Shown here: in pieces, positions 10,094-48,000 of the stretch
Layout of the letters: the number at the start of each line of letters is the position of its first letter
Position numbering within the stretch: the stretch's first letter is position 1
Source of the DNA: a virus
DNA length: 64,000 nt
Reading direction: 5' to 3' (one strand)
Virus record (IMG/VR): IMGVR_UViG_3300037502_002304
Span: 26,012-90,011 of that record
Notes under the pieces: model-generated
Told to the model about the DNA's origin: nothing
Seen by the model: the letters and a program-made list of their open reading frames with translations, nothing else
Databases searched by the model: none
Made by a program: the position numbers and the translations under genes

Positions 10094-11013
10094 TTAAACA
10101 ATTTCACAATTACCTCCACCACAAGCGACTTCTCCTCGTAAGTCTGTATTATCAAATGTTTCTACTACTTTAGACAAATCAATATCTTTTAAGCTTTTAT
10201 AAGCCTCCTCATACTCTTCTTTAGTACAAGATTCAAATGGGGCTTGCTTATAAGTATGTTCAACATAAGGAAGTACAGATATTCCACTATATAAATCCCT
10301 ATTTATCCACATCCAATTAGCAACTTCATCCCATTCATGTTCTTTAATAGATACAGTACAGCTTACATTATGAGAATTATAACCTTTAATAAATCCAGGT
10401 TTAATCCACTTATCTGTAATTGCATGTACTCTATTCAATAAATCTATAGCTGATTCATCTCTAGTAACTGCTCCTTCTGGTGCTTTTTGCGGAACTTTGA
10501 TAATAGCAGTAGTATCAGGATTAAAGTAATCATCTTCTAAAAGTTCTGGATGATGTATTGTTAGATAAGTATATAAAGCTTCTGTTTTATTAAGCCTAAT
10601 ACGTCTCCAATAATATTTATCATGCCAAGCATGTATTCCAGAAGATGTTCCTAATACCAAACTAGTAGTCCCTGCAGGTTTTACAGTAGTAACCCTAGCA
10701 GCAGGATTAATACCTATTTTAGCTGCATATTCTCTATTAACTTGTACAGCTAAATTAGCAGCTTCTTCTATATTATAGTCAAATACCTTCATTGAAGCAA
10801 TACCTGTTTGAGAAACCCCCAATAATGCCTCTTTTTCACAATTTCTACGCCAACTATCTCTTAGATAGTGGAAATCTGTATAACTTGCTTGAAGAGTACC
10901 AATAATAGTAGCAGCTTTAACTCTATCATTAAAGTCTTGCTGTGATACTAAATTAGAAACATTTACTTCAGTAAGATTACACATTTGTTCAGAATGTAGT
11001 GATACCTCATGAC
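10094..11013 (-). CDS. nrdJ: Class II ribonucleotide reductase, exon 2 (C-terminal part)
   Basis: Second exon of the split reductase gene. Read from 11013 the frame gives CHEVSLHSEQMCNLTEVN, joining onto the NP at the end of exon 1 to form the NPC(x)E active-site segment. Further on come the LGVSQTGIASMK region, TVKPAGTTSLVLGTSSGIHAWH (shown in part) and the Cys pair near the end (ACGGGNC), probably the redox-active C-terminal cysteines. An internal ATG (10984) makes it look like a separate gene, but the upstream coding sequence up to 11013 is needed. Exons of 952 and 920 nt sum to 1872 nt, exactly 624 codons. Confidence 0.9.
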
Positions 11014-11851
11014 CTTTATTGTTAACACTCTATAAAGAGTGTGCCTAGTCATTTCTGCTAGGCTCTGCATATTACTATGCAGAACAGACTATATCATCAC
11101 CCATTACTGGGGCCTTTCGTCCAATAATTTGTATTTAAAAGAATCTGTTATGTATGGTCTAATACCTTTCATAAATTTATTAATATCTTTTGTTCTTAAA
11201 GTTAGATAATAATACTTACCGTTCTTATTTATATTCCACTCCAAATTTAATTTATCTTTTAAAGCCTTCTTTAAGATGAATAAATCTCCATAAGAAAGTC
11301 TTTTAAGATTTAGAGTTACTTTATATGAAGGATTGACCATACCTATATTAGGTCTAAAATCTTTATAAATAGACCCATCACTCATATATAAAAAGGATAA
11401 GGCTTCATAATCTAATAATTTTAAGGCGTGTACATCAATACTTTTATAGTTACCTACATATATTCTATCTCTTAATTTAGTAAAGAATGGGTGTGTTTTT
11501 GTTTCTAACCTATATTGAGGTTGTCTGCCTTCTCCTTTATCTACAGAATATATTTTAGTACTGGTAATGTTTTCTAAAATATCTCTACATAAAAGAACAT
11601 AATCTTTATTTTTTTGTATCATATTCATTATAAACTTGGCATTTTTCTTATACTTATACACGCCTCCGTCTCCCATTACCATAAAAGAGACTAACTTAAC
11701 CAATTCCTTTTTATCAGTGATTTTTCTCATAACAAATTATTATAGTCGTTACACAATTCATATCGAATTAGCACGGTATTGTCCTAGTAGGAGTTCTACC
11801 GTTTTTAGAAAGGTTTTCATAGTAGATTACTCTATTATGCCGCTATCATTA
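11014..11851 (-). mobile_element. Group I intron in the ribonucleotide reductase gene
   Basis: An 838-nt intervening sequence. Exon 1 ends ...AATCCGT and exon 2 begins GTCATGAG, so the last exon base is T and the last intron base is G, as in group I introns. P1 can form between exon CCGT and intron GCGG with the required U.G pair. The 3' part holds GATATAGTC, and its partner ACGACTATA lies before the ORF; I read these as the P7 strands. Hairpins follow (TCTGCATAGTAATATGCAGA; GCCTAG...CTAGGC; ACACTC...GAGTGT). The intron carries a LAGLIDADG ORF at 11104-11730. Confidence 0.88.
11104..11730 (-). CDS. LAGLIDADG homing endonuclease (intron-encoded)
   Basis: A 208-residue protein with two LAGLIDADG-like helices: LVSFMVMGDGGVY near residue 13 and ALSFLYMSDGSIY near residue 110, each with the acidic Asp that binds metal. 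The two-motif layout indicates a monomeric enzyme. It lies inside the group I intron, and cleavage of intron-less nrdJ alleles would drive intron homing. The AT-rich composition matches the phage. Confidence 0.88.
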   Translation of the reverse strand: MRKITDKKELVKLVSFMVMGDGGVYKYKKNAKFIMNMIQKNKDYVLLCRDILENITSTKIYSVDKGEGRQPQYRLETKTHPFFTKLRDRIYVGNYKSIDVHALKLLDYEALSFLYMSDGSIYKDFRPNIGMVNPSYKVTLNLKRLSYGDLFILKKALKDKLNLEWNINKNGKYYYLTLRTKDINKFMKGIRPYITDSFKYKLLDERPQ

Positions 11852-12803
11852 ACGGATTAAATCCCATTTCTGGATTATTAGTCCAAGAAATACCAGGCTC
11901 ACCACTTCCTGAAGCTTTAATGTATTCCCACAAATCAAAGAATGTTTCTTTAGTAGCTCTTGACCTTACTAAAACTACACTATTATTAGCTCTACCTCTT
12001 TGTGGATTTAATTCCCACCAGTTACCTGTTTTACAAGATAACATTTCTTTATCATCCACAGAGAATAATGATATTAGTGCTGCTCTTCTAATACCTCCAG
12101 ATAGTACAGAATCAGCTATATGACACATAATATCATGTACTTCTATAGGCCTTAACTTACTATTATCAGGTTTATTATCTAATATACCACGTACTTTGGT
12201 AATACATTCTTTTAATGGTTGAGGACCAGGTGCTTTACCTCCAGAAGTAATTAATAAACTACCCTTAGGTCTAATTTCCCTATAATCGAATTCTATTGTA
12301 GAAGAAATCATACCAAAGTAGGATTTCATCAACATTTTAATAGCATCAGCCCACCCAACTATACTATCTTCTATTACATATCTCCTAACTCTATTAGGAT
12401 TAGGTTTTCTGATATAAGGTAACTGTTCAACATGATGTTTTTGAACGGAATATCCTACACCAGAACCACTTAGTAATAGAAACATAGCTTCTTGGAAGGC
12501 TCTATAATCATTCATAGCCATGAAGCTACAATTATAAAGTCTAGCAGGGTTAACATCTGCTGCAGGCCCTGCAAACTGCATACTCCTCATTGAAGGAAGT
12601 ACCTTTTTGTTTAAAACAAATGAATATGCCCATTCAATATCATCCTTTAATTTAGGAAATTTCTTCAGGTGCATATTCTTATTCCTATCTACAATCTCCT
12701 GCCAAGTTTCCCTACGATTTAAATCATAAAGATACCTAGCATACTTGTTAAAAATAGTAATCTCACTCAAAATCTCTCTACTTCTATCCATATTACTATT
12801 CAT
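11852..12803 (-). CDS. nrdJ: Class II ribonucleotide reductase, exon 1 (N-terminal part)
   Basis: First exon of the adenosylcobalamin-type ribonucleotide reductase (RTPR/NrdJ-like). Visible segments are VLPSMRSMQFAGPA, LYNCSFMAMND, LLLSGSGVGYSVQ and ADSVLSGGIRRAA; the Cys of LYNCS is the usual first redox cysteine. The exon ends after NP plus the T of the next codon. Without splicing the frame would run five codons into the intron and stop. The mature enzyme is 623 residues. It supplies dNTPs under any oxygen condition where B12 is available, which suits a gut or anaerobic host. Confidence 0.9.
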
Positions 12804-16474: not shown

Positions 16475-17116
16475 TTATTTCTTTAAGTTAAACAAAAATT
16501 CATTTAAAGTTTTTACATCATAATTTAACTTACTTTCTCCAATTCTATTTTTAGAAGTATTTCTCCTATATACTTCTAGATTAATTACTTTTCTAGGAGT
16601 AAAAGTTAAATTAAATAATGTATCAGCTCTTTTACTTTTTTTAGGGGAAAAAGGTTTTATCTTTTGGATATAAATTCCAGCCTTATCATATAACCATTTT
16701 TGTTTGTATGGAAATGAAATACTACTACTAGTATTCTTTTCATAATAAGCTTTTATTTCTACATAAGAAATAAATTTTCTTTCTCCATCTTCTTCTACTG
16801 TAGTATTTACTCTAAATGGAATATCTCTTACATTACCTTTTATAGGCACTTCAGTATTTAAATAAAATATATTTTCAGCCTTTTTATTCCATAAAATAGA
16901 GAAGTCAGCAGTAATACTGGCTTCCCTTAATAAATGTTCTGATTTTACAACTGTCTTACCTCTGACATTTTTATAATAATAATTTACTACTGGCTCACTA
17001 AGAGGAAAAGTATTTACTTCATATCCCCAATCTTTTACAAATCCAGCTTGTTTTAATTCTTCTAAATAATAAGAAAAATACTCTTCTTCCCTAGACTTAA
17101 AATCATAATCAATCAT
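16475..17116 (-). CDS. Putative PD-(D/E)XK nuclease/resolvase (DUF1064-like)
   Basis: A 213-residue protein with an arrangement like phage DUF1064/endonuclease proteins: an N-terminal helix SREEEYFSYYLEELKQAGF, then ITADFSILW (possible metal Asp near residue 70), YVEIKAYY (E-x-K near residue 120), and a Trp-containing KQKWLYDKAGI segment. That D...ExK order fits a PD-(D/E)XK fold, perhaps a Holliday-junction resolvase. The assignment rests on motif spacing only. It overlaps the ATP-grasp gene by 8 nt. Confidence 0.5.
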   Translation of the reverse strand: MIDYDFKSREEEYFSYYLEELKQAGFVKDWGYEVNTFPLSEPVVNYYYKNVRGKTVVKSEHLLREASITADFSILWNKKAENIFYLNTEVPIKGNVRDIPFRVNTTVEEDGERKFISYVEIKAYYEKNTSSSISFPYKQKWLYDKAGIYIQKIKPFSPKKSKRADTLFNLTFTPRKVINLEVYRRNTSKNRIGESKLNYDVKTLNEFLFNLKK

Positions 17117-17987
17117 CTGAATCCTCCTCTTCTAAATAATTCTCTGCATTACTATTATATCTCTTATTATATTCATCTACAGAAAAAGCAATTCCTAAAT
17201 ATTTAGAAATAGCTCTTACATACCTTAAATGAGTTGTAGTACCTCTTTTCATTCCTGGTGCAGTATTAATTTCTAATACACGAGCTTCTCCTGTATTTGA
17301 ATTATATGCAATATCTACTGCACCAAATACTAATCCAAGAGCAGGAATAGCAGCTAATGCTACCTCTTTTACTATATCTGGAACTTCTATTCCCTTCCTA
17401 CAAAATGACCAACCTTTTTTAAAGTTTCTAATATATTTAGATTCTTCAGTAATAACTATATTCTTTTCTGCACGTCTACTGCTAGACATTTTCTTTTTCT
17501 GTACAGCATCTATTACTTCTCCATTAAATACATGAATCCTATACTCAGCATCATTTTCAAAATATTCTGTATATAATTTAGCATCTACTAACTCATCTTC
17601 AGTAGTAGCTAATACAATACCTTTACCTTCTTTACTAGATACTAAAGTTCTACAATAAATTATTTTACCATTTCTAATAGCTTTGGCTGCATCTTTCTTT
17701 TTTAGATAAAAAGTTACATGAGGTACATCACTTAACTCTAAGTTAATAAGAGTCTTAATTTTATTAGAAGCTAATGCTACATTTTCAGGTCTATTTATAA
17801 TAATTATATCAGCATTACCACGTCTTAAAGCAGGGGCATCTCCTGCATACCCCCAATTTAATACAACATGTCCAGTTCTTGGGATATAATTTCTATTTGG
17901 ATATATTCTTTTACATTTAAAATGTCTTGAAATAGCCTTAGAAGATAGACTATTCATTTTGTAAGGAAGAACTTTTAAATTTCTCAT
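17109..17987 (-). CDS. ATP-grasp ligase
   Basis: A 292-residue protein with ATP-grasp features: GHVVLNWGYAGD near residue 38, a substrate/nucleotide loop SSKEGKGIVLATTEDEL, an LYTEYFENDAEYRIHVFNGE strand pair, and RVLEINTAPGMK near residue 252 with the Glu and Asn that hold Mg-ATP. ATP-grasp enzymes form amide or peptide bonds through acyl-phosphates. It is the first gene of a stretch that also encodes two amidoligase-type enzymes, a class II glutamine amidotransferase and a gamma-glutamylcyclotransferase, which suggests one peptide-modifying pathway. The substrate is unknown. Confidence 0.8.
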   Translation of the reverse strand: MRNLKVLPYKMNSLSSKAISRHFKCKRIYPNRNYIPRTGHVVLNWGYAGDAPALRRGNADIIIINRPENVALASNKIKTLINLELSDVPHVTFYLKKKDAAKAIRNGKIIYCRTLVSSKEGKGIVLATTEDELVDAKLYTEYFENDAEYRIHVFNGEVIDAVQKKKMSSSRRAEKNIVITEESKYIRNFKKGWSFCRKGIEVPDIVKEVALAAIPALGLVFGAVDIAYNSNTGEARVLEINTAPGMKRGTTTHLRYVRAISKYLGIAFSVDEYNKRYNSNAENYLEEEDSDD

Positions 17988-18012
17988 AGTAGTTTATTTA
18001 AAAAGATTTAAC

Positions 18013-18390
18013 TTATTTATATATATTTAAATATACTAAACAAATTGCCATTCGAGATTTATTAGTGCTAGTATACTTTTTAACTTCAACCTTGTCATAA
18101 TAAGGTTTAAGTTTTTCTAATATAGTATCTAAATATTTTTCTCTAACATCAATTGCCATTATTTGTTTACCTACATACTCTTTGAGTAATGACATAATTT
18201 TGTCAATATACTCTTGTTTCCTGAGATTAACAAGTGATTCAATATTTCCTACAGTAAATAATTGACAATTTAATGTTGGATCTACTGTGACTAATATACT
18301 AACATAATTAGCATTTAAAAATATTATTTCTCCAATATAAGGAAAATATTTATGTTTCCATTCAAATACTATTTCTACATCTTGTGTCAT
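18013..18390 (-). CDS. Hypothetical protein, paralogue of 18407-18799
   Basis: About 125 residues from ATG 18390 (MTQDVEIVFEWKHK); the longer frame from 18426 overlaps the upstream gene by 20 nt. Its middle and C-terminal parts match the neighbouring gene: NCQLFTVG, GKQIMAIDVREKYLD and EVKKYTSTNKSRMAICLVYL line up with NCQLCSLG, GKNIVLIDIRQFYLD and NIKKYTSTNGSEMVLCLLYL. This is a tandem duplication. The family is not known to me; the alternating strand/helix pattern suggests a small alpha/beta fold. Confidence 0.65.
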   Translation of the reverse strand: MTQDVEIVFEWKHKYFPYIGEIIFLNANYVSILVTVDPTLNCQLFTVGNIESLVNLRKQEYIDKIMSLLKEYVGKQIMAIDVREKYLDTILEKLKPYYDKVEVKKYTSTNKSRMAICLVYLNIYK

Positions 18391-18406
18391 TTTAGTAATA
18401 TTTAAA

Positions 18407-18799
18407 TTATATAAGTTTTTCGTCACTTAAGTATAATAAACATAAAACCATTTCAGACCCATTAGTACTTGTATATTTCTTAATGTTTATTTTATTACAA
18501 TATGGCTGTACTAATTTCTCCATTTTATCTAAATAGAATTGTCTAATATCTATTAATACAATATTTTTACCAATATGATATTTAATTTTTTTAAAAATCT
18601 GTCTAACTATATCTGGAAATTCTTTTAATTCTAAAAGTTCTTCACTTCCTCCTAAAGAACATAATTGACAATTAAAAGTAGGAGAACTATATACTGTTAG
18701 AATAATATCGAAAAAAGGATCATGTTCTATAGTTATTTTTCCTGCACTAATTGGGCCAGTAACCCATTCAAATTTTACATTATTAATAGAATCTCTCAT
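18407..18799 (-). CDS. Hypothetical protein, paralogue of 18013-18390
   Basis: A 130-residue partner of the tandem duplication described for the neighbouring gene; both keep FEW near the N terminus, NCQL in the middle and KKYTSTN near the C terminus. The shared NCQL and YTSTN motifs are the best candidates for functional residues. It starts 2 nt before the stop side of ung in the same operon. Function unknown. Confidence 0.65.
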   Translation of the reverse strand: MRDSINNVKFEWVTGPISAGKITIEHDPFFDIILTVYSSPTFNCQLCSLGGSEELLELKEFPDIVRQIFKKIKYHIGKNIVLIDIRQFYLDKMEKLVQPYCNKINIKKYTSTNGSEMVLCLLYLSDEKLI

Positions 18800-18800
18800 A

Positions 18801-19484
18801 TTACAATAATTTTAATTCTTGATCATAATATTTTTTAACTAATCCTACTAAATTTTTAAAATCAAATTCCCATAATCTACCTTTTCTAGCAGCATATGAA
18901 GGATGTTCTGCTTCTAGAATGATATGAGCATTTGAGTTTATATATTGTTTATAATCCTGTGCATTCTTACCCCACAAACAGAATATTAATCCACTGTTAT
19001 ATTCTGATAGTCTTTTAAGCACTTCAATAGTAAACCATTTCCAATACTTAAAATGACTTTCTGGCTCACCTTTTTTCACAGTTAAAGCAGTATTATATAA
19101 AAATATACCTTGGTTAGCCCAATGTATTAAATCCTTTTTAAACTCTCCTTCATAATTAAAATCGTATTCTACACGTTCTTTTATTTTTCTGAGAGAAGGA
19201 CTTAATCCATTAGAAGATAAATCATTAGAGAAAGCTAATCCATTAGCTCTATTATTTGGATAAGGGTCTTGGCCTAATATAACTACTTTTAAATCATCAT
19301 AATTTGTTAATTTAAAGGCATTAAATACCTTATTTTTCTCTGGAAATATTAATCCTTTATTTACTTTATACTCTTTACTCAAAGAGTCTAAAATCTTATA
19401 AAAATCAGTAGATAGTAATATAGGACTTAACATCCTATACCAACTACCTACTAATTTTTGTGCAAATTCTTTACTAACTTTCAT
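18801..19484 (-). CDS. ung: Uracil-DNA glycosylase, family 1
   Basis: Removes uracil from DNA. The water-activating loop is VVILGQDPYPNNRANGLAFS near residue 69, where Asp is catalytic and the usual His after GQDPY is Pro. GIFLYNTALTV follows, and the Leu/His loop is EAEHPSYAARKG near residue 193 (canonical HPSP with Tyr at the last place). Length 227 is normal for UNG. Together with dUTPase it shows strict control of uracil in the phage DNA. Confidence 0.92.
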   Translation of the reverse strand: MKVSKEFAQKLVGSWYRMLSPILLSTDFYKILDSLSKEYKVNKGLIFPEKNKVFNAFKLTNYDDLKVVILGQDPYPNNRANGLAFSNDLSSNGLSPSLRKIKERVEYDFNYEGEFKKDLIHWANQGIFLYNTALTVKKGEPESHFKYWKWFTIEVLKRLSEYNSGLIFCLWGKNAQDYKQYINSNAHIILEAEHPSYAARKGRLWEFDFKNLVGLVKKYYDQELKLL

Positions 19485-20909
19485 TCATACTATTTCTTTT
19501 ATTGGAAAATTAAAATTATTTAAATTGTCGCATTTAACATCTAATACTCCTATAAAATCATGATATTTACTTTGATACATATTCATAAGATCTTTTCTAT
19601 ACTTTATATAAGCTTTTAAGAACTTATTAAGCATTTTATCTTTATAAATAGTATCTATAATAGAGTTAAGAGTAATATTTTTATTAAAAGGATTTTCATC
19701 TTTAACTCTAAAAGCATATTCTACAATAGCACTGGTAATAAATATCCAAGCAGCTATCTTATCTTTATTAAAAGTACTGTTATGAATTCTAAATTCTACA
19801 GTACCACTACCAGCAAAAGCATAATGATTTAAATTACATATATAATATCTAGAATTAACAGCCCATTTATGCTCATTATATGCATCTATAGGATGGCTCA
19901 TTCCTATATGAAAAGAATCTAAATCTACATTATCAGATGATAGAAATAAAACTATATTTTCTAGATCATGTTCAAAATCATCATAAGTTATTAGATTTTT
20001 ATTTAATGGTTGACAATAATTCTTACCAGTACTTTTAAATAAAGCTGTCCTTTTTAATAATAAAGGAAACATTTTATATATTTCATCCTGAACTGTACAT
20101 ACTGTTCTATAAAGAGATACTAACATTTCATCAGAGCGGGAATAACCTCCTATATGGACATGTAAACTTTCATCTACACTTCTAGAACAGTACTTATTCA
20201 ATAGTTCAGAATGAGTTTTAATAGCTGGAAATACAACATTTTTGTCTAGAATTACAGTAGCATATTCAAAAGAAATACCTCTAGACTTTCTGAGACTACC
20301 ATCTTTTACTGGTATTAATCCATTAATTAAACATTTATTTTCAGGGATTTTACCTGCATATGTTTCATATTCTAACCCCACAGTAACATTATCTGGTAAA
20401 AATTTCCAGAAATGCTTTACTTTAGGTGGATTAAAGTGTTTATTAAAACTGTTGGTAAAACCTTGCAATAATCTATCTGCACTATAATCAAAGGGGAAAT
20501 TATAACTTCCCCCTAAAGTTGGTCTATAGAACTTTTTATTTGCTTTATTTTTACGAACAAATATACCAGTTCTTATATCTTCTACATATTTACCACTTTT
20601 TAATAAAACACTTTCATCATAAAAAATTCCTTCTGAAGGTATAGCAACACTTTTTATAGGATCAAATTTAAAATGAGCATAAACAGGTTTATCCTTCTTG
20701 TAATCAACTATACCTTTTACATGTGCTGCACTCTTTAATACATAATTCTTTACATCATAATCATACACTACTAAATTACTATCAATTCGATAATATCGGC
20801 CGTTAGGCATTTTAAAGCACTGACGACCGATTTCATAATACTTACCATTATATTTTCTACAATTATCTTTAGGTGCAAGTGTACCATCAAAAGTTTCTAC
20901 CATTTCCAT
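19485..20909 (-). CDS. Amidoligase (GS-like COOH-NH2 ligase, Amidoligase_2 type)
   Basis: A 474-residue protein. An N-terminal part of about 160 residues of unknown function is followed by a glutamine-synthetase-like amidoligase domain: VTVGLEYETYAG near residue 190 (metal Glu pair), PVKDGSLR, ISFEYAT, SLHVHIGG (metal His), WAVNSRYYICNLNHYAFAG and GTVEFRIHNSTFN near residue 390. These match the amidoligase family described by comparative genomics as making amide bonds in peptides or proteins. It starts 2 nt after the glutamine amidotransferase gene, so the two are almost surely coexpressed. Substrate unknown. Confidence 0.82.
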   Translation of the reverse strand: MEMVETFDGTLAPKDNCRKYNGKYYEIGRQCFKMPNGRYYRIDSNLVVYDYDVKNYVLKSAAHVKGIVDYKKDKPVYAHFKFDPIKSVAIPSEGIFYDESVLLKSGKYVEDIRTGIFVRKNKANKKFYRPTLGGSYNFPFDYSADRLLQGFTNSFNKHFNPPKVKHFWKFLPDNVTVGLEYETYAGKIPENKCLINGLIPVKDGSLRKSRGISFEYATVILDKNVVFPAIKTHSELLNKYCSRSVDESLHVHIGGYSRSDEMLVSLYRTVCTVQDEIYKMFPLLLKRTALFKSTGKNYCQPLNKNLITYDDFEHDLENIVLFLSSDNVDLDSFHIGMSHPIDAYNEHKWAVNSRYYICNLNHYAFAGSGTVEFRIHNSTFNKDKIAAWIFITSAIVEYAFRVKDENPFNKNITLNSIIDTIYKDKMLNKFLKAYIKYRKDLMNMYQSKYHDFIGVLDVKCDNLNNFNFPIKEIV

Positions 20910-20911
20910 AG

Positions 20912-22741
20912 TTATCCTATTTCTGAAAGTTGTTCTTTAAAATTATTTAACAATTCAATAGTATCTTCAGCTAATTTAACTCCTGGATAAACATATAAAT
21001 CATCTATAGTATCATCTATAAAAGACACTACATTAACTATTTCTTTAGCAATTTCTTTCCTAGTCAATTCATCTTCCATACTATCTAAATAGTCATTATT
21101 ATCCTTTTCAGTAGAATAATCTGATCCTAATATAGCTTCTTTCTTTTCTTCATCGGAACTATTGAAAACCTCTTCATAATATTTTTCTGCAACATCTTCA
21201 TCTCTACTACAATCATATTCTAAAGCTTTATTAAAATCATCAAAATCTTCAGGATAATATTGTCCTTCATTTTCAGTAACAGTTCTATAATCTGCTACTG
21301 TAGCTACTGATTCTCTACCACCCCTAATAAGTTTAGAGACTTTACTAAATACAGGATATAACATTCCATTATAAACTATTCTTTCACCAATAATTGGATT
21401 CCATTCATAATATTTATTGTCTCTAAGATCTAATACAGGATGTAAAGCTATTTTAATTACTTTTTCTGCAAGAAATCTATTCTTCACTTCATCAGTATAA
21501 AACTTTTTATACTTCTTATTATATTTACGAAAACTTTTATGGTCTTTAACCATAATCCCATCTATAAAGTAATATACTTTATGATATGAAGAATTAGCTA
21601 AATCATTAGGTACAATATATCCTAAAGAATTTACGTGATAAATACCATGAACTATTTTATCTTTAATTTTATACCTACCATTTACAAATACTATTCTATT
21701 GTCTTCTAAACTAATTTTATCATCAGCAGAAGGTAAAGCTTTATTAGTAGAATTACTTTGAATTGTAGTACTCTGAGTGTTTTTACTCTTATACCTCATA
21801 TTCCAGTTAGAATATCCACCATAATTATTATACCAATAGTCATCATAGTCATAACTATGGTTATAATTAAGAAAGCCATTGCCTTGGATATTCTTTCTAG
21901 TTATATGAAAATCATCTACTAACTTACCTTCTTTAAAAGTTAATACAGTATTAGCTTCTATTTCTTCAATATTTGGCTCAGCTTCTTCTGAAATTACATA
22001 TAATGAATTTTCTACTGAAGAAAACCAAATATTATTTCTTCCTTCATAAATATATAATGGCCGCTCTTCTTCATTATCGTTAGAATATTTATTCATAGGA
22101 CTTTCACCTCTAAATAATTTCAAAGTACTGTCCCTGAAATCATACCAAGCTAATGCAGCCCCTCCTTGATATTCTTCTAAAATAGAATAATCTTTCTTTA
22201 CAAGTAACGTCCATAATAATACTTGAGAATCATTAGGGGCATGTTCAATTTTCTTACCCTTATCGTAATAAACTAATTTTTCAGGAACATTATATTTCTT
22301 CATAAGTTCCTCTTTATTATAAAGAGTACCATTATGAAGTCCCATTCCTATGATATTATCATTCTCATCCCTAATAGCAAAGGGTTGAGTATATTCAATA
22401 CCCATAGTTAATTTAGCATTTGCAGAAGTTTTTCTAGTATGACCAAATATAGTTGTCTCATTTTCAATATCAGGGTTTAATCTATAAACAACTATATCAG
22501 TATATTTTTTGATAGGGCTAGAATTAAAATGTTCATAATATTTTCCTATCATTCTTCCTGCAGCATCACCACCTCTGGGATCATTCATAATACCAAGGAT
22601 ATTAAACTTATCCCATTTAAATTTTTTATTAGTCTTACCATGAAATCCCCAGATACCACAATTAAGAGTATCATAATTAGGTTTGAAGAAATAAGTTATA
22701 ATCAAATGAACTAACAATGCTACTAAAATAATATTTACCAT
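20912..22741 (-). CDS. Class II glutamine amidotransferase fusion protein with N-terminal membrane segment
   Basis: A 609-residue protein. Residues 3-18 are a hydrophobic helix (NIILVALLVHLIITYF). At residue 28 the class II amidotransferase domain begins, NCGIWGFHGK; its Cys must become the N terminus to act as nucleophile, so cleavage of a 27-residue leader is needed. Other amidotransferase segments are NDPRGGDAAG, GHTRKTSA, GLHNGTLYNKEEL and NDSQVLLWTLL. Residues 300-600 are an unassigned, acidic region with many Tyr. The domain would release ammonia from glutamine for the neighbouring amidoligases. No downstream ATG places the Cys second, so the leader is not a start-site error. Confidence 0.8.
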   Translation of the reverse strand: MVNIILVALLVHLIITYFFKPNYDTLNCGIWGFHGKTNKKFKWDKFNILGIMNDPRGGDAAGRMIGKYYEHFNSSPIKKYTDIVVYRLNPDIENETTIFGHTRKTSANAKLTMGIEYTQPFAIRDENDNIIGMGLHNGTLYNKEELMKKYNVPEKLVYYDKGKKIEHAPNDSQVLLWTLLVKKDYSILEEYQGGAALAWYDFRDSTLKLFRGESPMNKYSNDNEEERPLYIYEGRNNIWFSSVENSLYVISEEAEPNIEEIEANTVLTFKEGKLVDDFHITRKNIQGNGFLNYNHSYDYDDYWYNNYGGYSNWNMRYKSKNTQSTTIQSNSTNKALPSADDKISLEDNRIVFVNGRYKIKDKIVHGIYHVNSLGYIVPNDLANSSYHKVYYFIDGIMVKDHKSFRKYNKKYKKFYTDEVKNRFLAEKVIKIALHPVLDLRDNKYYEWNPIIGERIVYNGMLYPVFSKVSKLIRGGRESVATVADYRTVTENEGQYYPEDFDDFNKALEYDCSRDEDVAEKYYEEVFNSSDEEKKEAILGSDYSTEKDNNDYLDSMEDELTRKEIAKEIVNVVSFIDDTIDDLYVYPGVKLAEDTIELLNNFKEQLSEIG

Positions 22742-22753
22742 AATTTAAAGATT

Positions 22754-23602
22754 TTAATAATTTACACTTTTTAATTTCCTATAAACATGAGTATTTCTAA
22801 GACTACCTGAAAATCCATTAGAAGGTGGTATTTGTTCTACTAAATCTATACCTAGAAAATCATAATCTTCATAAGAAGGTTTCTTAAGAGACTCTAGTTT
22901 TTCACAATTTTCAGCAGAAGAACAATATTCTACTACTTTTTGTACTTGGTTATAAATCCAGAAAGTATATGCTGGATTTCCAAAATATCCACCTAAAGTA
23001 CGGAATTCAATTCCATAAGGTGTAGGTCTAAATGCTCCATATGCACCATAATTTTCTCTACGTTGTTTAGTATATGATACTATATCTGAAGGTAAACTAA
23101 CAAAATAATCATATGCTCTTGCTAGATACAGATTCATAATCATAGGGTCTACATTATCATCTAATACATCATAACCTAGATGAATATGAGTTCCTACAGG
23201 TCTGTAAAGAGAATCTCCTAATTTAGGTGATTGCTTAGAACATTTTTCCCAAGCATCTATATAACTGCTACATCCAAATTCTTGACCATCTTTTGTATAA
23301 ATAAACCTTTTATCAAATTTAGCTATATCTACAAAATCTATATGAGCTCCAGGTTTTTTAGTTTCAAGCAAAAGATTAATCATAGTAATTAAGTAGCTCA
23401 TATTACTGTAAAATGAGTCTTCAGTACTAGATGGTGGGATATTTCCTTCTATTAAGAGATTATCTTTTAATACAGCAAAACCATTTCCTTTATCTTCTGG
23501 ATTTTGTTTAGTACCTTCAATAAACATAAAAGAAGGTAAATATTTATTTTTATATCTGATTACAAATTCAGGATCTGCACCGATAGTTTTAAATTCTAAC
23601 AT
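22754..23602 (-). CDS. COOH-NH2 ligase, phiEco32-like type 2 (amidoligase)
   Basis: A 282-residue protein with the GADPEF opening near residue 8 that marks phage COOH-NH2 ligases (GS fold). Further family-like segments are LIEGNIPPSSTEDSFY, GTHIHLGYDV near residue 138 (metal His), and GIEFRTLGGYFGNP near residue 198. It is a second, distinct amide-forming enzyme beside the 474-residue amidoligase. The pair, with the amidotransferase between them, indicates a multi-step modification rather than one activity. Substrate unknown. Confidence 0.8.
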   Translation of the reverse strand: MLEFKTIGADPEFVIRYKNKYLPSFMFIEGTKQNPEDKGNGFAVLKDNLLIEGNIPPSSTEDSFYSNMSYLITMINLLLETKKPGAHIDFVDIAKFDKRFIYTKDGQEFGCSSYIDAWEKCSKQSPKLGDSLYRPVGTHIHLGYDVLDDNVDPMIMNLYLARAYDYFVSLPSDIVSYTKQRRENYGAYGAFRPTPYGIEFRTLGGYFGNPAYTFWIYNQVQKVVEYCSSAENCEKLESLKKPSYEDYDFLGIDLVEQIPPSNGFSGSLRNTHVYRKLKSVNY

Positions 23603-23633
23603 AGTTATATATTTTAAAGGTTATTTAAAATTA

Positions 23634-23987
23634 TTAGTCAAAATTAGGTTCTTCCCAAATACCAGTTTCAACTAGTAAATCATAGTTAGGATTAAGTTCC
23701 ATGTTATATACATAAATAATAGCTTTACCATATTTAGTATCTACTATCTGTTTATCATATAACTGAGGATAACCTTCTAATCTATCTAAAGCATCCAGAC
23801 CCTCTTGGTTATCTACATCATAGACTTCGATAGATATACTACCATCTCCTGGTTTAATTCCAGGAAAGGCTCCTAAATTATACATATCAAAGCCTTTAAT
23901 TCTATCTGTACCTAGATATTTATAAGGCCTAATCAATTCGTGATTGTAGAATCCCCTTTTTAATGAACCATAAACTGCTACTAACAT
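23634..23987 (-). CDS. Gamma-glutamylcyclotransferase-like (AIG2/BtrG) protein
   Basis: A 117-residue GGCT-fold protein. The N-terminal VAVYGSLKRGFYNHEL is the YGSL loop that binds the gamma-glutamyl group; IEVYDVDNQEGLDALDRLEGYP carries the expected acidic catalytic position, and KAIIYVYN closes the domain. It cleaves gamma-glutamyl amines with 5-oxoproline formation. Next to two amidoligases and an amidotransferase, it suggests that a gamma-glutamyl group is added and later removed, as in butirosin biosynthesis; this analogy is inference. Confidence 0.85.
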   Translation of the reverse strand: MLVAVYGSLKRGFYNHELIRPYKYLGTDRIKGFDMYNLGAFPGIKPGDGSISIEVYDVDNQEGLDALDRLEGYPQLYDKQIVDTKYGKAIIYVYNMELNPNYDLLVETGIWEEPNFD

Positions 23988-24005
23988 AATTATAAATTTT
24001 AATTA

Positions 24006-24500
24006 TTAACTATTAAAAACAATTCTTCTTGTGAAAAAATTTTCATTTAAAGGAATATCATTTAAAGTAAACTTCTTACTTTTTAAAGCTAATTTTACTA
24101 TTTGACCAAAGCTAGGACCATGTTTTAAATAATCTTTATTTAAATATACACTACTATAGTCGCCAGAATTTATAAAACTTGTTATACCACTATATCCGTA
24201 TGGATCATGTGTGATTGTTAATTTTTTAATTTCATCACAATAATATATACGAATATTAGAATTCCTTTTATCTAATAACATTCTAGCTAATTCTCCTTTG
24301 GTAATAGTTTTAAATTTAGACTTCATTAACCAATAAATATCCATAAAACTCCTACCTTTTGTAGGATAACATTGAATACGATCATTATCTACATAATAAG
24401 TAGCTTTAAAATATCTGTCTGATTCATTAGGAAAAAAACTAAATAAATATTCTTTTTTAGTTTTAATATCTTTACCTTCCTTATAATATATTTTTCTCAT
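24006..24500 (-). CDS. Hypothetical protein, paralogue of 24513-25001
   Basis: A 164-residue protein that lines up along its length with the adjacent gene: FSFFPNE, TYYVDNDRIQCY, GRSFMDIYWLMKSKFKT, LARMLLDKRNSNIRIYYCD and YGYSGITSFINS are matched by LKLLPNE, TYYSDTNRLQCY, ARSFRELFWLFKTRFKT, LAKILLDKRHSNIRMYYCD and HGYSAIPSFINA. This is a second tandem duplication in the region. No family recognised. It is likely cotranscribed with the primase upstream. Confidence 0.65.
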   Translation of the reverse strand: MRKIYYKEGKDIKTKKEYLFSFFPNESDRYFKATYYVDNDRIQCYPTKGRSFMDIYWLMKSKFKTITKGELARMLLDKRNSNIRIYYCDEIKKLTITHDPYGYSGITSFINSGDYSSVYLNKDYLKHGPSFGQIVKLALKSKKFTLNDIPLNENFFTRRIVFNS

Positions 24501-24512
24501 GATTATTAAATA

Positions 24513-25001
24513 TTAAAATACATCTGGATTCAAATTAATATCATCATAAGTAAAATCTTTATTTTGTAATGCCAATTGTAACACATCTTCAAAAGTTTCT
24601 CCATATTCATGAAAATACTCATCTAAATGCATAGAATATTCATGTCCTTCTGCATTTATAAAACTCGGAATAGCTGAATACCCATGATTAGTAGTTACCA
24701 TTAACATTTCAACATCATCACAATAATACATTCTTATATTAGAATGTCTTTTATCTAGTAAAATTTTAGCTAATTCTTTTCTAGTAGCTGTTTTAAATCT
24801 GGTTTTAAATAGCCAGAATAATTCCCTAAAACTTCTTGCTGCTTTTCGGTAGCATTGTAACCTATTTGTATCTGAATAATAAGTTTCAGGAAAAAAACCT
24901 CTATTTTCATTTGGCAGAAGTTTTAAAATAAACTCTTTTTTTGAACGAGCCTTTATATTTTTGCAATAAATCCTTTCTATTGGATAATCTTTTTCACTCA
25001 T
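24513..25001 (-). CDS. Hypothetical protein, paralogue of 24006-24500
   Basis: A 162-residue member of the tandem pair. Shared invariant features are a Cys in the QCY motif, the RSF..L/..WL helix, DKR(H/N)SNIR and a CD pair. It overlaps the primase gene by 4 nt (ATGA), pointing to translation coupled to replication genes. Function unknown. Confidence 0.65.
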   Translation of the reverse strand: MSEKDYPIERIYCKNIKARSKKEFILKLLPNENRGFFPETYYSDTNRLQCYRKAARSFRELFWLFKTRFKTATRKELAKILLDKRHSNIRMYYCDDVEMLMVTTNHGYSAIPSFINAEGHEYSMHLDEYFHEYGETFEDVLQLALQNKDFTYDDINLNPDVF

Positions 25002-26017
25002 AATCCTATTTCTTTTAATTGTTCTTTAATTAATTTTAAAGACTCCTCTTTACCGTTAAAATAATAATAATCAGAAATATCCTTTAGCATACTTCCAGTA
25101 TTAATATAAGGAATATTAAATTTTTCCTCTAATTTTTTAGAGAATTTTATACCAGCATCATCAAAATCATAGAATGTAACTATATGATTAAATCTACTTT
25201 TAAATTCTTTAATCAAAGAATCTTTAAACTCATAGTTTTCTGATTGAGGTGCAACAAAATTATAACCTAAATCATGCAAGCACATTCCATCTTTTAATGA
25301 TGAGGCTATGAATAATAATTCTCCTTTTTCTGGAAGTTGTTCGTAACCACTTAATGTATTCGGTAAAAAGCCACTAATCCATTTTAAAACTTTACTTTCT
25401 GGTTGATAAACTTTAAATCTAATTACATTGTTTTTATTCTCTACATAAGCATATGCTAAAGGATCTGCTTTAATTACATCATCATTAATAAATATATATA
25501 GTAGAGGTCTAACCCGATACTTTTTTAAAGTATCTAGGCTTACTCCATATGATTTCCAATACTCCACATCTCTCCTACGCCACTCTCTACTTTTAATATT
25601 TAAAGAAAAGTGCTTCTCTAATTTTTTATAATCAATATTTTTATGAACTTTAGGATTTTTACTAGAACTTCTAGTTCTTATAGTATCTATATAAAATTTA
25701 TCTTGTAGGTTAAAATCTACTATTATTTGTTCAAGAGCTTCTCTATAATTTAAATGAAATAAGTTCTTTACAAAATGAATAGAATCCCCTTTATCTCCTG
25801 TAGCTAAATCATGATAAAGTATCTTATTTGAATATTTTCTAGAAGTATAAACAGAAAATGAAGGGTGGTTGTCTTTTCTTAATGGTGAATGATTTACACC
25901 ATTTATAGTTACTTCAGGAAAGTAATATTTAAATATATCATAATCACTTATGAACTTATAAATATTTTCTTCACTAACTTGTAATTTAGGATTAAATCTT
26001 TCATCTCTTAAATCCAT
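24998..26017 (-). CDS. DNA primase (DnaG/Toprim type)
   Basis: A 339-residue primase. The N-terminal part follows the CHC2 pattern (NHSPLRKDNHPSFSVY ... LYHDLATGDKGDSIHFV) but lacks the zinc-binding cysteines. The C-terminal Toprim part has LLFIASSLKDGMCL (in place of the usual Glu-bearing strand) and VTFYDFDDAGIKFSKKL with the D-x-D metal site near residue 265. No helicase domain is fused; the DnaB-like helicase is at 27602-28732. Loss of the zinc ligands is a notable deviation, although related phage primases also lack them. Confidence 0.75.
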   Translation of the reverse strand: MDLRDERFNPKLQVSEENIYKFISDYDIFKYYFPEVTINGVNHSPLRKDNHPSFSVYTSRKYSNKILYHDLATGDKGDSIHFVKNLFHLNYREALEQIIVDFNLQDKFYIDTIRTRSSSKNPKVHKNIDYKKLEKHFSLNIKSREWRRRDVEYWKSYGVSLDTLKKYRVRPLLYIFINDDVIKADPLAYAYVENKNNVIRFKVYQPESKVLKWISGFLPNTLSGYEQLPEKGELLFIASSLKDGMCLHDLGYNFVAPQSENYEFKDSLIKEFKSRFNHIVTFYDFDDAGIKFSKKLEEKFNIPYINTGSMLKDISDYYYFNGKEESLKLIKEQLKEIGL

Positions 26018-26030
26018 AGTTATAGTAAAT

Positions 26031-26060
26031 AAAAAAGGGCAGCCATTATGGCCACCCTTT
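26031..26060 (-). terminator. Intrinsic terminator after the SSB-like gene
   Basis: On the minus strand GGGTGGCCATAATGGCTGCCC forms a GC-rich hairpin, immediately followed by TTTTTTATTT. It lies just after the stop of 26084-26683 and separates this abundant-protein gene from the primase operon. Confidence 0.85.
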
Positions 26061-26083
26061 AATTTTAACTAACTTAACTTCTA

Positions 26084-26683
26084 TTAAAGCCATCCATCAG
26101 TCGCTGGTCCATCGGAAGTAAAACCTTCAGTATCTTCACTACCACCTGAAGCTCGCATGTTCATGCCTTCCTCAGGATCGGGCTCTGGACGTGTAGTAAG
26201 GGCTTTACTACTAAGTCGAGGCAACCCATCTTCTACATTCTTAATACCCCAAAACCCATCAATTTCTAAGAAACGACGAGGACGGGTAGTTGTACCATAA
26301 CATACTGCAACATTAACTTTAATGTTATCTTGATTATCATGGCAGCATTTAAGTACACCATCCAAAGCTTCAGTAGGTGATTTATATGCTTTAACAGCTT
26401 TATCTTCTACTCGAAATACTTTAGCCAAATGTTTCAATTCACGACCAAACATTTCTTCACGAGTACCTTCAATATCATCTAGACCTCGTTTAAAATAAGC
26501 ACGGTTAACTTCACCTCCATTTTCATCAGTTACAATTAATCTATAATCAGGTGCATTTTCAGATTCATCTGCTGATTTCTTTTCAATCCTTACAGAACAG
26601 TTCTTTACTACTCCTGCTTCTCCATTGTTGAATACTTTTACTTCTTTGTCATCGAATCTTTTTTCACTTAAATCAAATGCCAT
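26084..26683 (-). CDS. Single-stranded DNA-binding protein-like
   Basis: A 199-residue protein with a beta-rich N-terminal half (FDDKEVKVFNNGEAGVVKN, DYRLIVTDENGG), and a Gly/Ser/Asp/Glu-rich tail ending in DGPATDGWL. A disordered acidic tail ending with an aromatic residue is the hallmark of SSB-type proteins that recruit replication partners. Its codon usage is more GC-rich and biased than its neighbours, it has its own terminator and probably its own promoter; all agree with high expression. OB-fold identity is inferred. Confidence 0.6.
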   Translation of the reverse strand: MAFDLSEKRFDDKEVKVFNNGEAGVVKNCSVRIEKKSADESENAPDYRLIVTDENGGEVNRAYFKRGLDDIEGTREEMFGRELKHLAKVFRVEDKAVKAYKSPTEALDGVLKCCHDNQDNIKVNVAVCYGTTTRPRRFLEIDGFWGIKNVEDGLPRLSSKALTTRPEPDPEEGMNMRASGGSEDTEGFTSDGPATDGWL

Positions 26684-26736
26684 AGTTGTTAGTTTTTATA
26701 AAGTTAGACAATAAATTATTTTTCTAAATAGGGTTA

Positions 26737-26744
26737 CAAAGATA
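26737..26744 (-). promoter_or_regulatory. Candidate promoter -7 box and leader of the SSB-like gene
   Basis: On the minus strand TATCTTTG fits the Bacteroidota -7 box TAnnTTTG; a good TTTG at -33 is not seen. Between it and the start codon the leader has TATTGTCTAACTTTA, which also occurs before the gene at 36381-36935 and resembles the TGATGTTTAACTTTAAA leader of the early genes. Confidence 0.4.
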
Positions 26745-26777
26745 ATAATTTTATTTATAAATACTAGTTAAAGAATA

Positions 26778-27533
26778 TTAATCATTGTTTTTAATAAAGA
26801 TCCTGTCCCAATAAGCAGTAATATTGTTATTTTCATCAGATTCTGCTATAACAATTTCTTTACCTCGAAGATGAGGCGGTCTTGCTTCTACAATAGAATC
26901 TTCACCTCCATTAAAATTAATAATAGTTTTATTTTTATCTCTATAAATATAACCAAGAGCATCAGATTCTGCTGCTACTAATCGTTCTAATTTTCCAGAC
27001 AAATCAATTGTATTTTCAAATAATTCCTTACCTTGTCTGTTAATATTCTTATCTTTAGTATGCGCTAATAGAATCAAGTGAGGTGTTAGTTTTCTAAAAG
27101 TATTAATAACTTTAAAGAAAGCTTCCCTTAGATATAAGTAACCTGCACCATTAGGAAGACTACGAACATCCTCAAAGCGATATTTACCTGTTTTTGGATC
27201 TAAACCAAAGTTCTTACCCATAGGTGTCTTTTGATATAAATTCTGAGCTAAAGGTAGAACCATTTCTTCCAAATCAGTAGCAGTATCAATAGTAATGTAT
27301 TCATAAGGACAATTTGCTTCTTTAATTGCCTTACTTACTTCCATTAACTCATTTAAATCAGAGGCTTTTATGATTAGGCCACTGACATAATCTGATCCAT
27401 CATTAATGTCAACAATTAGGTTATTGTCCAGCATGGAAGCTATAGTAGTTTTACCACTCTTAGGCTTTCCAAATAATACCAAAAATCTTGGATTAACTGT
27501 CTTAGGCTTGCTTTTCTGCGTTGGTAACTTCAT
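26778..27533 (-). CDS. RecA-like/Sak4-type recombination ATPase
   Basis: A 251-residue P-loop ATPase of the Sak4/AAA_24 kind. The Walker A is LFGKPKSGKTTIAS near residue 24, the Walker B strand is YEYITIDTATDLEEM near residue 78, and LTPHLILLAHTKDK near residue 136 is the sensor strand. The spacing and the K-x-x-SGKTT loop are typical of phage Sak4 annealing-associated RecA cores. It is adjacent to the SSB-like gene, its expected partner in recombination-dependent replication. Confidence 0.75.
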   Translation of the reverse strand: MKLPTQKSKPKTVNPRFLVLFGKPKSGKTTIASMLDNNLIVDINDGSDYVSGLIIKASDLNELMEVSKAIKEANCPYEYITIDTATDLEEMVLPLAQNLYQKTPMGKNFGLDPKTGKYRFEDVRSLPNGAGYLYLREAFFKVINTFRKLTPHLILLAHTKDKNINRQGKELFENTIDLSGKLERLVAAESDALGYIYRDKNKTIINFNGGEDSIVEARPPHLRGKEIVIAESDENNNITAYWDRIFIKNND

Positions 27534-27601
27534 AATTAATACTATTTTATTATATTATTAAATTTATATTTATAAATCTTATTATATTTTTACTCATACG
27601 A

Positions 27602-45055: not shown

Positions 45056-48000
45056 ATGGTAAATAATGATAATTTTTTAATTAAAGAAATACCGATATTC
45101 CACCCAATTTCACAGAAATTTGAGCGTATAAACTTTTTTAAAGATATTAAACGTAAGATGTTTGAGGGGATGTGGTCTGGTAACAGATGGTGTCCCCCTG
45201 AATTATTTTTTCACGTAAATTTAAGTACCATACAGTTTTTAGGAGGTGGTAGAAAAGTTAGTGGTATAGGAAGGCCATGGTTCCGTGATATAGAATGGGA
45301 AAAAGCCTATATTTATACAGAAGCATGTGGATTTAGTGGTTTTAGAGATGACCCTGAATATACTTGTTTAAGAGAAGTTCAGGAGATGACTAAAGAAGAG
45401 ATTTATAATGAATTTTGTCTAGATCATCATGGTAATCTAATAGAAGATAATTATAAAGCCTTATTTAAAAAGGATGGGTCTCTAAAGAAATATATGCCTG
45501 CTAGAGAATATCTATGGCGTACAGATATGAACTCTTCTTTTGGCCCTCATATGTACCTAAATCAAGCTAAGAACGTTGTAGATTTTGAAGGCAGAGGATG
45601 TCTCGCAGAGGGAACTGAAGTTTTAATGTATGATGGTTCCATTAAAAAAATAGAGGATATTGTGATAGGTGATGAATTAATGGGTAAAGACTCCACATGT
45701 AGAACCGTGTTGGATATCCACTCTGGAGAAGATTATCTGTATACGCTGAGGCATTCAGACAAGAGCTTTGATGATATCACTGTTACAAAAGATCATAGGG
45801 TTTCTATAAAAAAGAGGTGTTACAACAATGGTAAATATGTAAATGGTAAAAGGACTAATGGAACTTACCATTATGAGTATGTTGACTATACTGTTGAGGA
45901 ACTTAAAAATGTAGAGAGTCAAGCATCTTTTAAAGATGTTTATCATAGATATAAACCAAATATTAGTTTGGAGTTTAAGAATAGTAAGACACCAACAATA
46001 GATCCTTATTATTTTGGACTTTGGTTAGCTGATGGCAGAAGCAATTGCACCTCTATTAAAACTACTGATCCAGTTTTATGGGAATACTTAGAGAATTTCG
46101 CTAAGGATAATAAAATTGATTATAAAGTATCCATTACAAAGGCTGCCTATAACCGAAAAGAAGCTAGAGAGTATTATTATAAAGATAATTATTTTAGACA
46201 ATGTTTTAAAGACTATGGATTACTTTATAAAAAAGGTTGTGTTCCTGATAAATATATACCAAATGATTTTTTAACTGCTACCAAAGATGTTAGACTACAA
46301 TTGCTTGCGGGTATTATTGATGGGGATGGAACCTATGATACTAACAGAAAACATTTTGTAATATGTGTAGGACTGAATAAAGACTTGGCAAATTCTTATT
46401 TAAGGCTAGTACAGTCATTGGGATTTAGAGGTAGTTTAACTTCTAGGAATAGAAAGGGTTACAAAAAAATTTTCATGGTTAGGGTAAGTGGTAATATAGA
46501 GACAATACCAACCAAGCTTTATAGAAAGCAAGCATCTAAAATTATACATAGAGTAGATTTAAATAGTTCTTCTTTTAAAATAGAACCTAAAGGATTTGGT
46601 AAGTATTACGGATTAGTGGTAGATGTAGATGGAGAATATCTGCTAAAAGATTTTAGTGTAGATCATAACAGTGGAAAATCGTATTGGGCATCCTCTTGTA
46701 TTCAACACAATCTACTTACTGATGGTGCCAGAAGTTATGATGCTTATTTAGAAGGACGTAAGACTGGTAACCTTAAATCTATTTCTCAGACTCTAGTAGG
46801 AGCTATAGAAGCTAAGTATAGCATGGATTTGCTAGATAAAGTTAAATTCTCTCTAGAACACCTTCCTGGAAAACTTACTATTCGCATTAATGGGGAGGAT
46901 AAAGACTTTCCATCACCTCTAATGCCTGAATTATCAGGTAGTTGGGCTCCTGCTAAATCTATAAGAGATACACTTTCTGGAAGTAGTATTGTACATCGTA
47001 CCTTCCAAGATAATCCATTGGCTGCTAACGGTACTCGTCCTAATAGAGCTTTTATAGAAGAGGTTGGTTTTATGAGTAACATACAGGAGGTACTTGGTGC
47101 AGTAGAAGCTACACAGCCTAATAAACAGACTAATAAATATTTACCTATATATATGCTTGGTACTGGTGGTTATACTACTACTGGTACTGCTATCTGGCTT
47201 AAAGAAATCTTTTATAATCCAGAAGCATTTGATTGTTTAGCTTTTGATGATGTTTGGGAAAATAAAGGTAAGATAGGATATTTTTTACCAGCTACTAAAA
47301 GCCAAAATGATTTCAAAGAAGGGCCTAATCTTATATCTAATGAAGAAAAGGCTTTAGAATCTATAATGAAGGCCAGAGAAAAAGCTAAGTCTTCTAATAA
47401 TAAAGTAAAATTACTTACTGAAATTATTAACCAACCTATTAAACCTTCTGAAGTATTTAAAACTATAGAAGGTAATTTCTTTCCTACTGAAGAACTAACA
47501 GAAATATTAGCAGATTTAGAATCTAAAGAATATCTATTGAATTCTACTCATAGGTATGAATTTAACATTATTAAAGGGAAAGTAGTTCCCAAAGTATCTG
47601 ATAAACAGCCGATACGGGAATTCCCGCTTCGGAAAGGATTAGAAATGGATGCTTGTGTAGAAATATTTGAGCTTCCTAAGAGAGATAAAGATGGGAATAT
47701 ACCTTATGGTAGATACTTAGCTGGTTGGGACCCAGTAGAAACAGATGGTAATGAAGATACTAATCAATCATTACAGTCATTAATAATATTAGATTCATGG
47801 ACAGATAGGATAGTAGCTGAATATACTGCTAGAACCTATATATCAGAAGAGTATTATGAACAAGCTAGAAGGCTATTAATGTTTTATAATGCTATATGTA
47901 ATTATGAAAGTAACATAAAAGGGCCTTATGGATACTTTAAAAATAAGAATTCATTACATTTATTATGTGATACTCCTGAAATTCTAAAAGATGAGTCTTT

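Follow-up and report, generated by a model that had tools for sequence, protein, structure and literature searches.

In RIO-1-like podoviruses, a seven-gene peptidoglycan modification cassette has been described and suggested to block superinfection by other phages; further carriers listed are phiEco32, 7-11, PA11, tf, MR299-2, LUZ24, PaP3 and CW02 (PMC5498523). Seven open reading frames (ORFs) of the cassette type are found in phiM6 (PMC6256558), a table of the five domain types is given for UFV-P2 (PMC3890496) and the superinfection idea has since been restated (PMC10580990). Three papers (PMC5498523, PMC6256558, PMC11945000) refer the cassette back to Iyer 2009 and Hardies 2013. Early cassette proteins were detected in preparations of phage SU10, indicating that the cassette is expressed there (PMC4281155). 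Here we analysed a 64,000-nucleotide stretch of viral DNA (the window; positions 26,012 to 90,011 of the IMG/VR record IMGVR_UViG_3300037502_002304, which is 90,011 bases long), in which five genes for amide-bond chemistry lie together. They almost certainly constitute the Crassvirales form of this known peptidoglycan-modification (amide-ligase) cassette, as the four core enzymes, a gamma-glutamyl-cleaving enzyme and a position in the early/replication block beside the primase were all found. A sequence-only reading of the window had suggested that the set was novel, which does not hold, as the cassette is published for podoviruses (PMC5498523, PMC6256558, PMC11945000) and annotations of these genes exist for the crAss-like phages phi14:2 and cr108_1. 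Its statement that such sets have no known product still agrees with the literature surveyed.

The five genes lie in one co-directional run on the minus strand, in which neighbouring genes are no more than 31 bases apart, between the primase and an exonuclease of the PD-(D/E)XK type (Table 1). Pfam and PHROG matches, family profiles, conserved catalytic residues and models of the two amidoligases bear out the five enzymes named in the sequence-only reading, although the interval that it delimited also encloses a uracil-DNA glycosylase (UDG) and two paralogous ORFs, which stand outside the set. The profile of the gamma-glutamylcyclotransferase (GGCT) family matched YtfP (1xhs) at 4e-22 and, more weakly, GGACT-type AIG2-like chains (2kl2/3juc, about 3e-8). 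The class II glutamine amidotransferase (GAT) comprises a hydrophobic N-terminal leader (residues 1-27), a glutaminase domain with the catalytic Cys28 and a C-terminal extension without known function; a profile of its eight-member family matched the glutaminase domains of PurF and GlmS at up to 1e-19, and no synthetase domain was recognised in the protein. Both amidoligases exceed the Pfam cut-off, and the Amidoligase_2 protein has an N-terminal extension of about 170 residues that is typical of crAss-type members. The best solved matches to the AlphaFold model of the COOH-NH2 ligase (mean predicted local distance difference test score, pLDDT, 89) are YbdK-type carboxylate-amine ligases and glutamine synthetases, and those to the Amidoligase_2 model (mean pLDDT 87) are glutamine synthetases and YbdK, in both cases at E-values near 6e-6 and with modest TM-scores of about 0.3-0.5. 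The ATP-grasp protein is the weakest of the five by Pfam, falling under every Pfam cut-off, and was recognised through phrog_2599 and through its family profile, which matched RimK-type alpha-L-glutamate ligases in the PDB at 1e-10 to 2e-7.

Residue conservation was assessed in eight diverse phages for four of the enzymes and in five phages for GGCT. Invariant positions include the catalytic Glu71 of GGCT, C28, R56, N137-G138 and D171 of GAT, and E239-x-N241, D225, R150 and K165 of the ATP-grasp protein. E52, H139/H141, R192, E199 and R201 of the COOH-NH2 ligase are invariant across 65 sequences, and G178, E180, E182, H250, H252, E372 and R374 of Amidoligase_2 across 46. Judged by these alignments, the catalytic residues of all five enzymes are intact.

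Table 1. Positions of the amide-bond enzymes, of neighbouring and other genes in the window, and of reference features in related loci
Feature	Sequence	Position	Strand	Match or remark
GGCT/AIG2-like gamma-glutamyl(amine) cyclotransferase	window	23634..23987	-	PF06094 3.4e-21; phrog_2520
COOH-NH2 ligase type 2 (glutamine-synthetase-like amidoligase)	window	22754..23602	-	PF14395 1.2e-9, above cut-off; phrog_3815 1e-41
Class II glutamine amidotransferase (GAT)	window	20912..22741	-	GATase_6 2.4e-6, above cut-off
Amidoligase_2 (glutamine-synthetase-like)	window	19485..20909	-	PF12224 1.8e-9, above cut-off
RimK-like ATP-grasp (alpha-glutamate-ligase type)	window	17109..17987	-	phrog_2599 2e-54
Uracil-DNA glycosylase (UDG)	window	18801..19484	-	PF03167 4.7e-15; conserved Steigviridae gene, marks slot boundary
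Two paralogous ORFs	window	18013-18426, 18407-18799	-	38% identical; not counted in the enzyme set
DNA primase	window	24998..26017	-	phrog_12622 4e-44; conserved gene on the upstream side of the slot
Podovirus-type intervening gene	L006	3990-4538		also in podovirus-type IMG/VR loci
Podovirus-type intervening gene	L007	5456-6016
Podovirus-type intervening gene	L005	8172-8783
Slot with E1-like ThiF, JAB-like metalloprotease and neighbours	crAss001 (L010)	20583-25805
Slot with E1-like ThiF, JAB-like metalloprotease and neighbours	cr85_1 (L011)	23202-27558
Two paralogous ORFs between primase and GGCT	window	24006-24500, 24513-25001		45% identical
Ribonucleotide reductase, two ORFs	window	10094-10984, 11835-12803		consecutive parts of phrog_367 (span 10094-12803)
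LAGLIDADG-type homing endonuclease	window	11104-11730
DNA polymerase exonuclease-subunit homologue	window	51371-52285	+	phrog_403 3e-89
Terminase large subunit	window	45056-48355		1099 aa; N-terminal half matches phrog_36964

The podovirus cassettes (RIO-1-like, PA11-like, LUZ24-like and phiEco32-like) have the same four core enzymes with GGCT and/or Peptidase_C26, beside the primase. The window differs from them in belonging to a crAss-like phage, in lacking C26 and the gene of about 200 codons between the amidoligases, in its longer Amidoligase_2 and GAT proteins, in the hydrophobic leader of GAT and in the placement of the ATP-grasp gene beyond the UDG gene. The Cellulophaga phage phi14:2, a member of the Steigviridae, encodes all five enzymes (g037-g041) at the equivalent position, flanked by primase and UDG, and its GAT has the same membrane-type leader, but its proteins are only about 19-36% identical to those of the window, its GGCT is longer and its ATP-grasp gene, which is of the crAss type, lies between those for GGCT and the COOH-NH2 ligase. 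In cr108_1 (gp028-gp034) the same slot holds the same four core enzymes, whereas a Peptidase_C26 class I GAT replaces GGCT, the class II GAT lacks a leader and two extra paralogous genes are present.

To place the set among other phages we used the COOH-NH2 ligase, relatives of which were found in 314 phage records, including E. coli and Pseudomonas phages that can be grown in ordinary laboratories, and in 402 IMG/VR stretches; the latter search required an alignment, as the single window sequence gave zero matches in IMG/VR. Eighty IMG/VR loci were taken, profile hidden Markov models of our own were built and every open frame was scored. Fifty of the loci had wide flanks, and 48 of these could be classified as crAss-type (18) or as podovirus-type with a primase/helicase (30). 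The ATP-grasp protein, the COOH-NH2 ligase, Amidoligase_2 and the class II GAT occurred together in 48 of 48 classified loci, from two unrelated phage types, and since loci were chosen through the COOH-NH2 ligase alone, the co-presence of the other three genes was not built in. The clustering is far above chance and the four core genes are obligately linked. The earlier supposition that the genes act as a set is thus strengthened, every classified locus having all four core genes, with no scattering or independent loss. A conserved protein of about 180-250 aa is encoded between the two amidoligases in all 30 podovirus-type loci and in none of the 18 crAss-type loci (examples in Table 1), and the checked copies have no Pfam match; by this distribution the gene is to be regarded as a trait of the podovirus form only and not of the whole cassette. 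Its fusion into the long crAss-type Amidoligase_2 or GAT was ruled out (hhalign probability 0.1%). A cellular origin of the cassette was looked for in a genome_contigs collection and rejected: it yielded only 13 matches, nearly all on phage-looking contigs of metagenome-assembled genomes, and so gave no hint on function from a host operon.

The gamma-glutamyl-cleaving step proved equally constant. Among the 50 wide loci, 14 encode GGCT only, 23 Peptidase_C26 only and 13 both, and there is none with neither. GGCT enzymes and PuuD-type C26 enzymes both take off gamma-glutamyl groups, and because every locus encodes one or the other, the pattern fits an obligatory step of gamma-glutamate removal in the predicted pathway. 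The state changed about 11 times on the COOH-NH2 ligase tree. Pfam recognises C26, a class I GAT, in cr108_1 and PA11, and most C26 copies checked have a PuuD-like GICRG nucleophile motif, which was not found in cr108_1. In the 90 kb record that includes the window, GGCT is present and no Peptidase_C26 was found.

We then considered the leader of the glutaminase. In the window GAT, a strongly hydrophobic segment precedes the catalytic cysteine at residue 28, and the codon ahead of this cysteine is AAT, which cannot start translation. Class II amidotransferases require a free N-terminal cysteine, so the leader would have to be cut before Cys28. GATs of the leader type make up 13 of 24 assessable crAss-type sequences and none of 58 podovirus-type sequences. 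Leaders are present in the window, in phi14:2 (whose GAT is only 27% identical to that of the window) and in loci L015, L017, L018, L028, L036, L038, L043 and L049. Several have a T-L-N|C motif at the junction of leader and cysteine, and in several the hydrophobic stretch is followed by Lys/Arg, which suggests that the enzyme would face the cytoplasm. These features hint at membrane tethering of the glutaminase in a subset of crAss-type phages that includes this one.

We tentatively propose that the cassette encodes an early pathway that modifies the cell envelope or a peptide and ends in the removal of gamma-glutamate, with the envelope as target being possible rather than probable. First, the class II GAT domain hydrolyses glutamine and so provides ammonia, as its family, fold and motifs show; in some crAss-type phages the leader would apparently anchor this glutaminase to the membrane. 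One amidoligase of the glutamine synthetase fold may then activate the gamma-carboxyl of glutamate and join it to an amine, the other may form a second amide, with one of the two using the ammonia, and the RimK-like ATP-grasp enzyme would attach glutamate, or less likely another amino acid, to a carboxyl terminus. The gamma-glutamyl-cleaving enzyme, here GGCT, would strip gamma-glutamate from the product or from an intermediate. The acceptor would be a peptide-bearing envelope molecule, most likely a peptidoglycan stem-peptide precursor, and its alteration early in infection could render the cell resistant to rival phages or time lysis. Every host named among the matches listed is Gram-negative/diderm, which makes a common envelope target possible, and the same role has been proposed for the RIO-1-like, phiEco32, LUZ24 and PA11 cassettes (PMC5498523, PMC6256558, PMC10580990).

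Several observations weigh against this proposal. The neighbouring replication genes are equally expected for a pathway that modifies nucleotides or DNA, and searches of the 90 kb record revealed neither a Mur-ligase nor an acyl-carrier gene. A tree-controlled pair test of the replacement of GGCT by C26 was not significant, with too few independent contrasts. The leader is itself a prediction, and if translation began at a TTG codon within it, just a short propeptide would remain; moreover, it is absent from all podovirus-type GATs and from about half of those of the crAss type, so membrane tethering cannot be essential. Finally, we found no product, substrate or mutant phenotype of any cassette in the literature surveyed.

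A second explanation, which we regard as rather unlikely, is protein modification, in which the ATP-grasp enzyme and the amidoligases attach glutamate or isopeptide groups to a protein of the host or the phage and trim them, much as RimK acts on ribosomal protein S6, in order to steer host machinery or to protect phage proteins. The nearest solved relatives of the ATP-grasp enzyme are indeed RimK-type alpha-glutamate ligases, although small molecules too are substrates of RimK-like ATP-grasps. The GGCT profile also matches chains of the GGACT type, enzymes that cut gamma-glutamate off lysine side chains, yet the crAss-type cassettes have no conserved dedicated target protein or carrier. The remaining argument comes from the slot between primase and UDG, which is occupied by the amide cassette in the window, in phi14:2 and cr108_1 and in several of the IMG/VR loci, and which in other Steigviridae, namely crAss001 and cr85_1, is filled by an E1-like ThiF, a JAB-like metalloprotease and neighbours, proteins typical of protein conjugation. 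ThiF and JAB-like genes are both present in many related crAss phages, and relatives of ThiF were found in 78 phage records, including three Xanthomonas phages and one Erwinia phage. This swap constitutes positional evidence only; since the E1/JAB module and the amide cassette both form bonds to carboxyl groups, we keep a protein-tagging role open.

The likeness to butirosin synthesis and putrescine use leads to a third explanation. In these pathways a ligase puts gamma-glutamate on (the ATP-grasp BtrJ for butirosin, PuuA for putrescine) and GGCT (BtrG) or C26 (PuuD) takes it off, and the phage set is never without an enzyme of the BtrG or the PuuD type, each of which can stand in for the other. 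The cassette may accordingly make a small molecule in which an amine is protected by gamma-glutamate, undergoes further steps and is then released by GGCT or C26 as a compound that hits the host or rival phages. We consider this unlikely. The window shares a GGCT-type enzyme and an ATP-grasp glutamate ligase with the butirosin pathway at the family level only, and a search of the 90 kb record, itself possibly incomplete, did not reveal the acyl-carrier protein (PF00550) that is the hallmark of butirosin chemistry. The conserved core also has no tailoring enzymes, and none for oxidation, so that the compound would hardly be changed before the protecting group came off again. For the protecting-group logic put forward in the sequence-only reading, the result is mixed: the universal presence of GGCT or C26, with C26 replacing GGCT in 23 loci, speaks for it, and the missing carrier protein against it. 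It is supported only indirectly, and its best evidence, the GGCT/C26 pattern, also serves any scheme with a final gamma-glutamate cut.

It is tempting to speculate that the primase-UDG slot is a dedicated site for covalent tagging aimed at the host, taken by either the E1/JAB module or the amide cassette and never by both among the records checked (of 16, ThiF occurs in just the two that are without the cassette). The cassette would then be the amidoligase counterpart of ubiquitin-like conjugation rather than an edit of the cell wall, and some crAss-type phages would have it act at the inner membrane through a leader-bearing, self-processed glutaminase. We think such a site distinctly unlikely.

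DNA hypermodification, in which the cassette yields an amide-bearing nucleotide or base that shields phage DNA from restriction, appears very improbable. In several phage groups that are not related to one another, genes for primase and DNA polymerase are neighbours of the cassette. The Gordonclarkvirinae, of which the Kuravirus members SU10 (L009) and phiEco32 carry it, are reported to resist restriction to a remarkable degree although no pathway for modifying their DNA is known (PMC11990801). However, the authors of that BASEL study name a dCTP deaminase and a nucleotidyltransferase as candidates instead (PMC11990801), DNA of the LUZ24-like phage tf, a listed carrier, is cut by RsaI, HpaI, EcoRV, SmaI and HaeIII (PMC3517423), and the set has no constant nucleotide-handling gene. 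Scavenging of nitrogen or amino acids, in which the enzymes free the nitrogen of glutamine and glutamate and make it available again to the growing phage, has been put forward for Phage-ZRK32 on its amidoligase, GAT, GGCT and 'glutathione synthase' genes as part of nitrogen metabolism (PMC10945688), but we regard it as the most improbable account, as ATP-consuming ligases are an odd means of freeing nitrogen and the strict coupling of four genes suits one pathway product.

The cassette of the window appears to be a mosaic. Its COOH-NH2 ligase, Amidoligase_2 and GAT are closest to crAss-type relatives, whereas the ATP-grasp protein scores 173 bits with podovirus-type and 49 bits with crAss-type relatives and its gene lies beyond that for UDG; GGCT likewise scores 98 against 72 bits. 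From these scores, the ATP-grasp gene was likely acquired from a podovirus cassette. An approximately unbiased (AU) test that seemed to demonstrate this transfer (p = 3e-6) had two other outlying crAss-type sequences in it and was discarded; after clean-up, grouping of the window ATP-grasp with crAss sequences was not rejected (p = 0.28).

The phage is assigned to the Crassvirales, as a Steigviridae-like member, by its crAss-like capsid, portal and terminase and by the order of its replication genes. The major capsid protein is 38.5% identical to that of cr108_1 (1e-88), and the portal and terminase large subunit of the late block have crAss-type PHROG matches. The replication block encodes a DNA polymerase, dUTPase, split ribonucleotide reductase, PhoH, RtcB, exonuclease, UDG, primase, Sak4-like and DnaB-like proteins in an order that agrees with the Steigviridae cr108_1, phi14:2, crAss001 and cr85_1. 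The placement of the cassette in a phage replication block, given in the sequence-only reading, is upheld. The primase is syntenic in the same four phages, and a terminator-like site lies directly upstream of its gene. UDG was ruled out as a functional partner of the cassette because crAss001 and cr85_1 carry it without the cassette. Pfam and PHROG scans of the paralogue pair next to UDG gave no convincing family match, and weak relatives of the pair occur in L008 and L052; the second paralogue pair, between primase and GGCT, has weak relatives in L028, L032 and L038. Elsewhere in the window, the two ribonucleotide reductase ORFs are separated by that of the homing endonuclease, which probably reflects an intron or an interrupted gene. 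A homologue of the DNA polymerase exonuclease subunit lies in the structural block between the portal and major capsid genes. The N-terminal half of the terminase large subunit ORF also matches a primase family weakly, and this ORF may be a fusion or contain an intein.

Within the partial coverage of our literature search, we found no discussion of the cassette in crAss-like phages, nor any report of the features seen in the 50 loci compared: the constant linkage of four enzymes, the constant gamma-glutamyl cleavage, the exchange of GGCT and C26, the crAss-type GAT leader and, in other crAss phages, the E1/JAB module in place of the cassette. The product of the cassette has been guessed at since 2009, and no experiment on it was found in the literature; the constant four-enzyme linkage together with the constant gamma-glutamyl-cleaving step now gives a concrete chemical prediction. 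Its occurrence in crAss-like phages ties the cassette to an abundant order of gut phages, and the slot that it has in common with the E1/JAB module suggests the kind of function that this slot serves.

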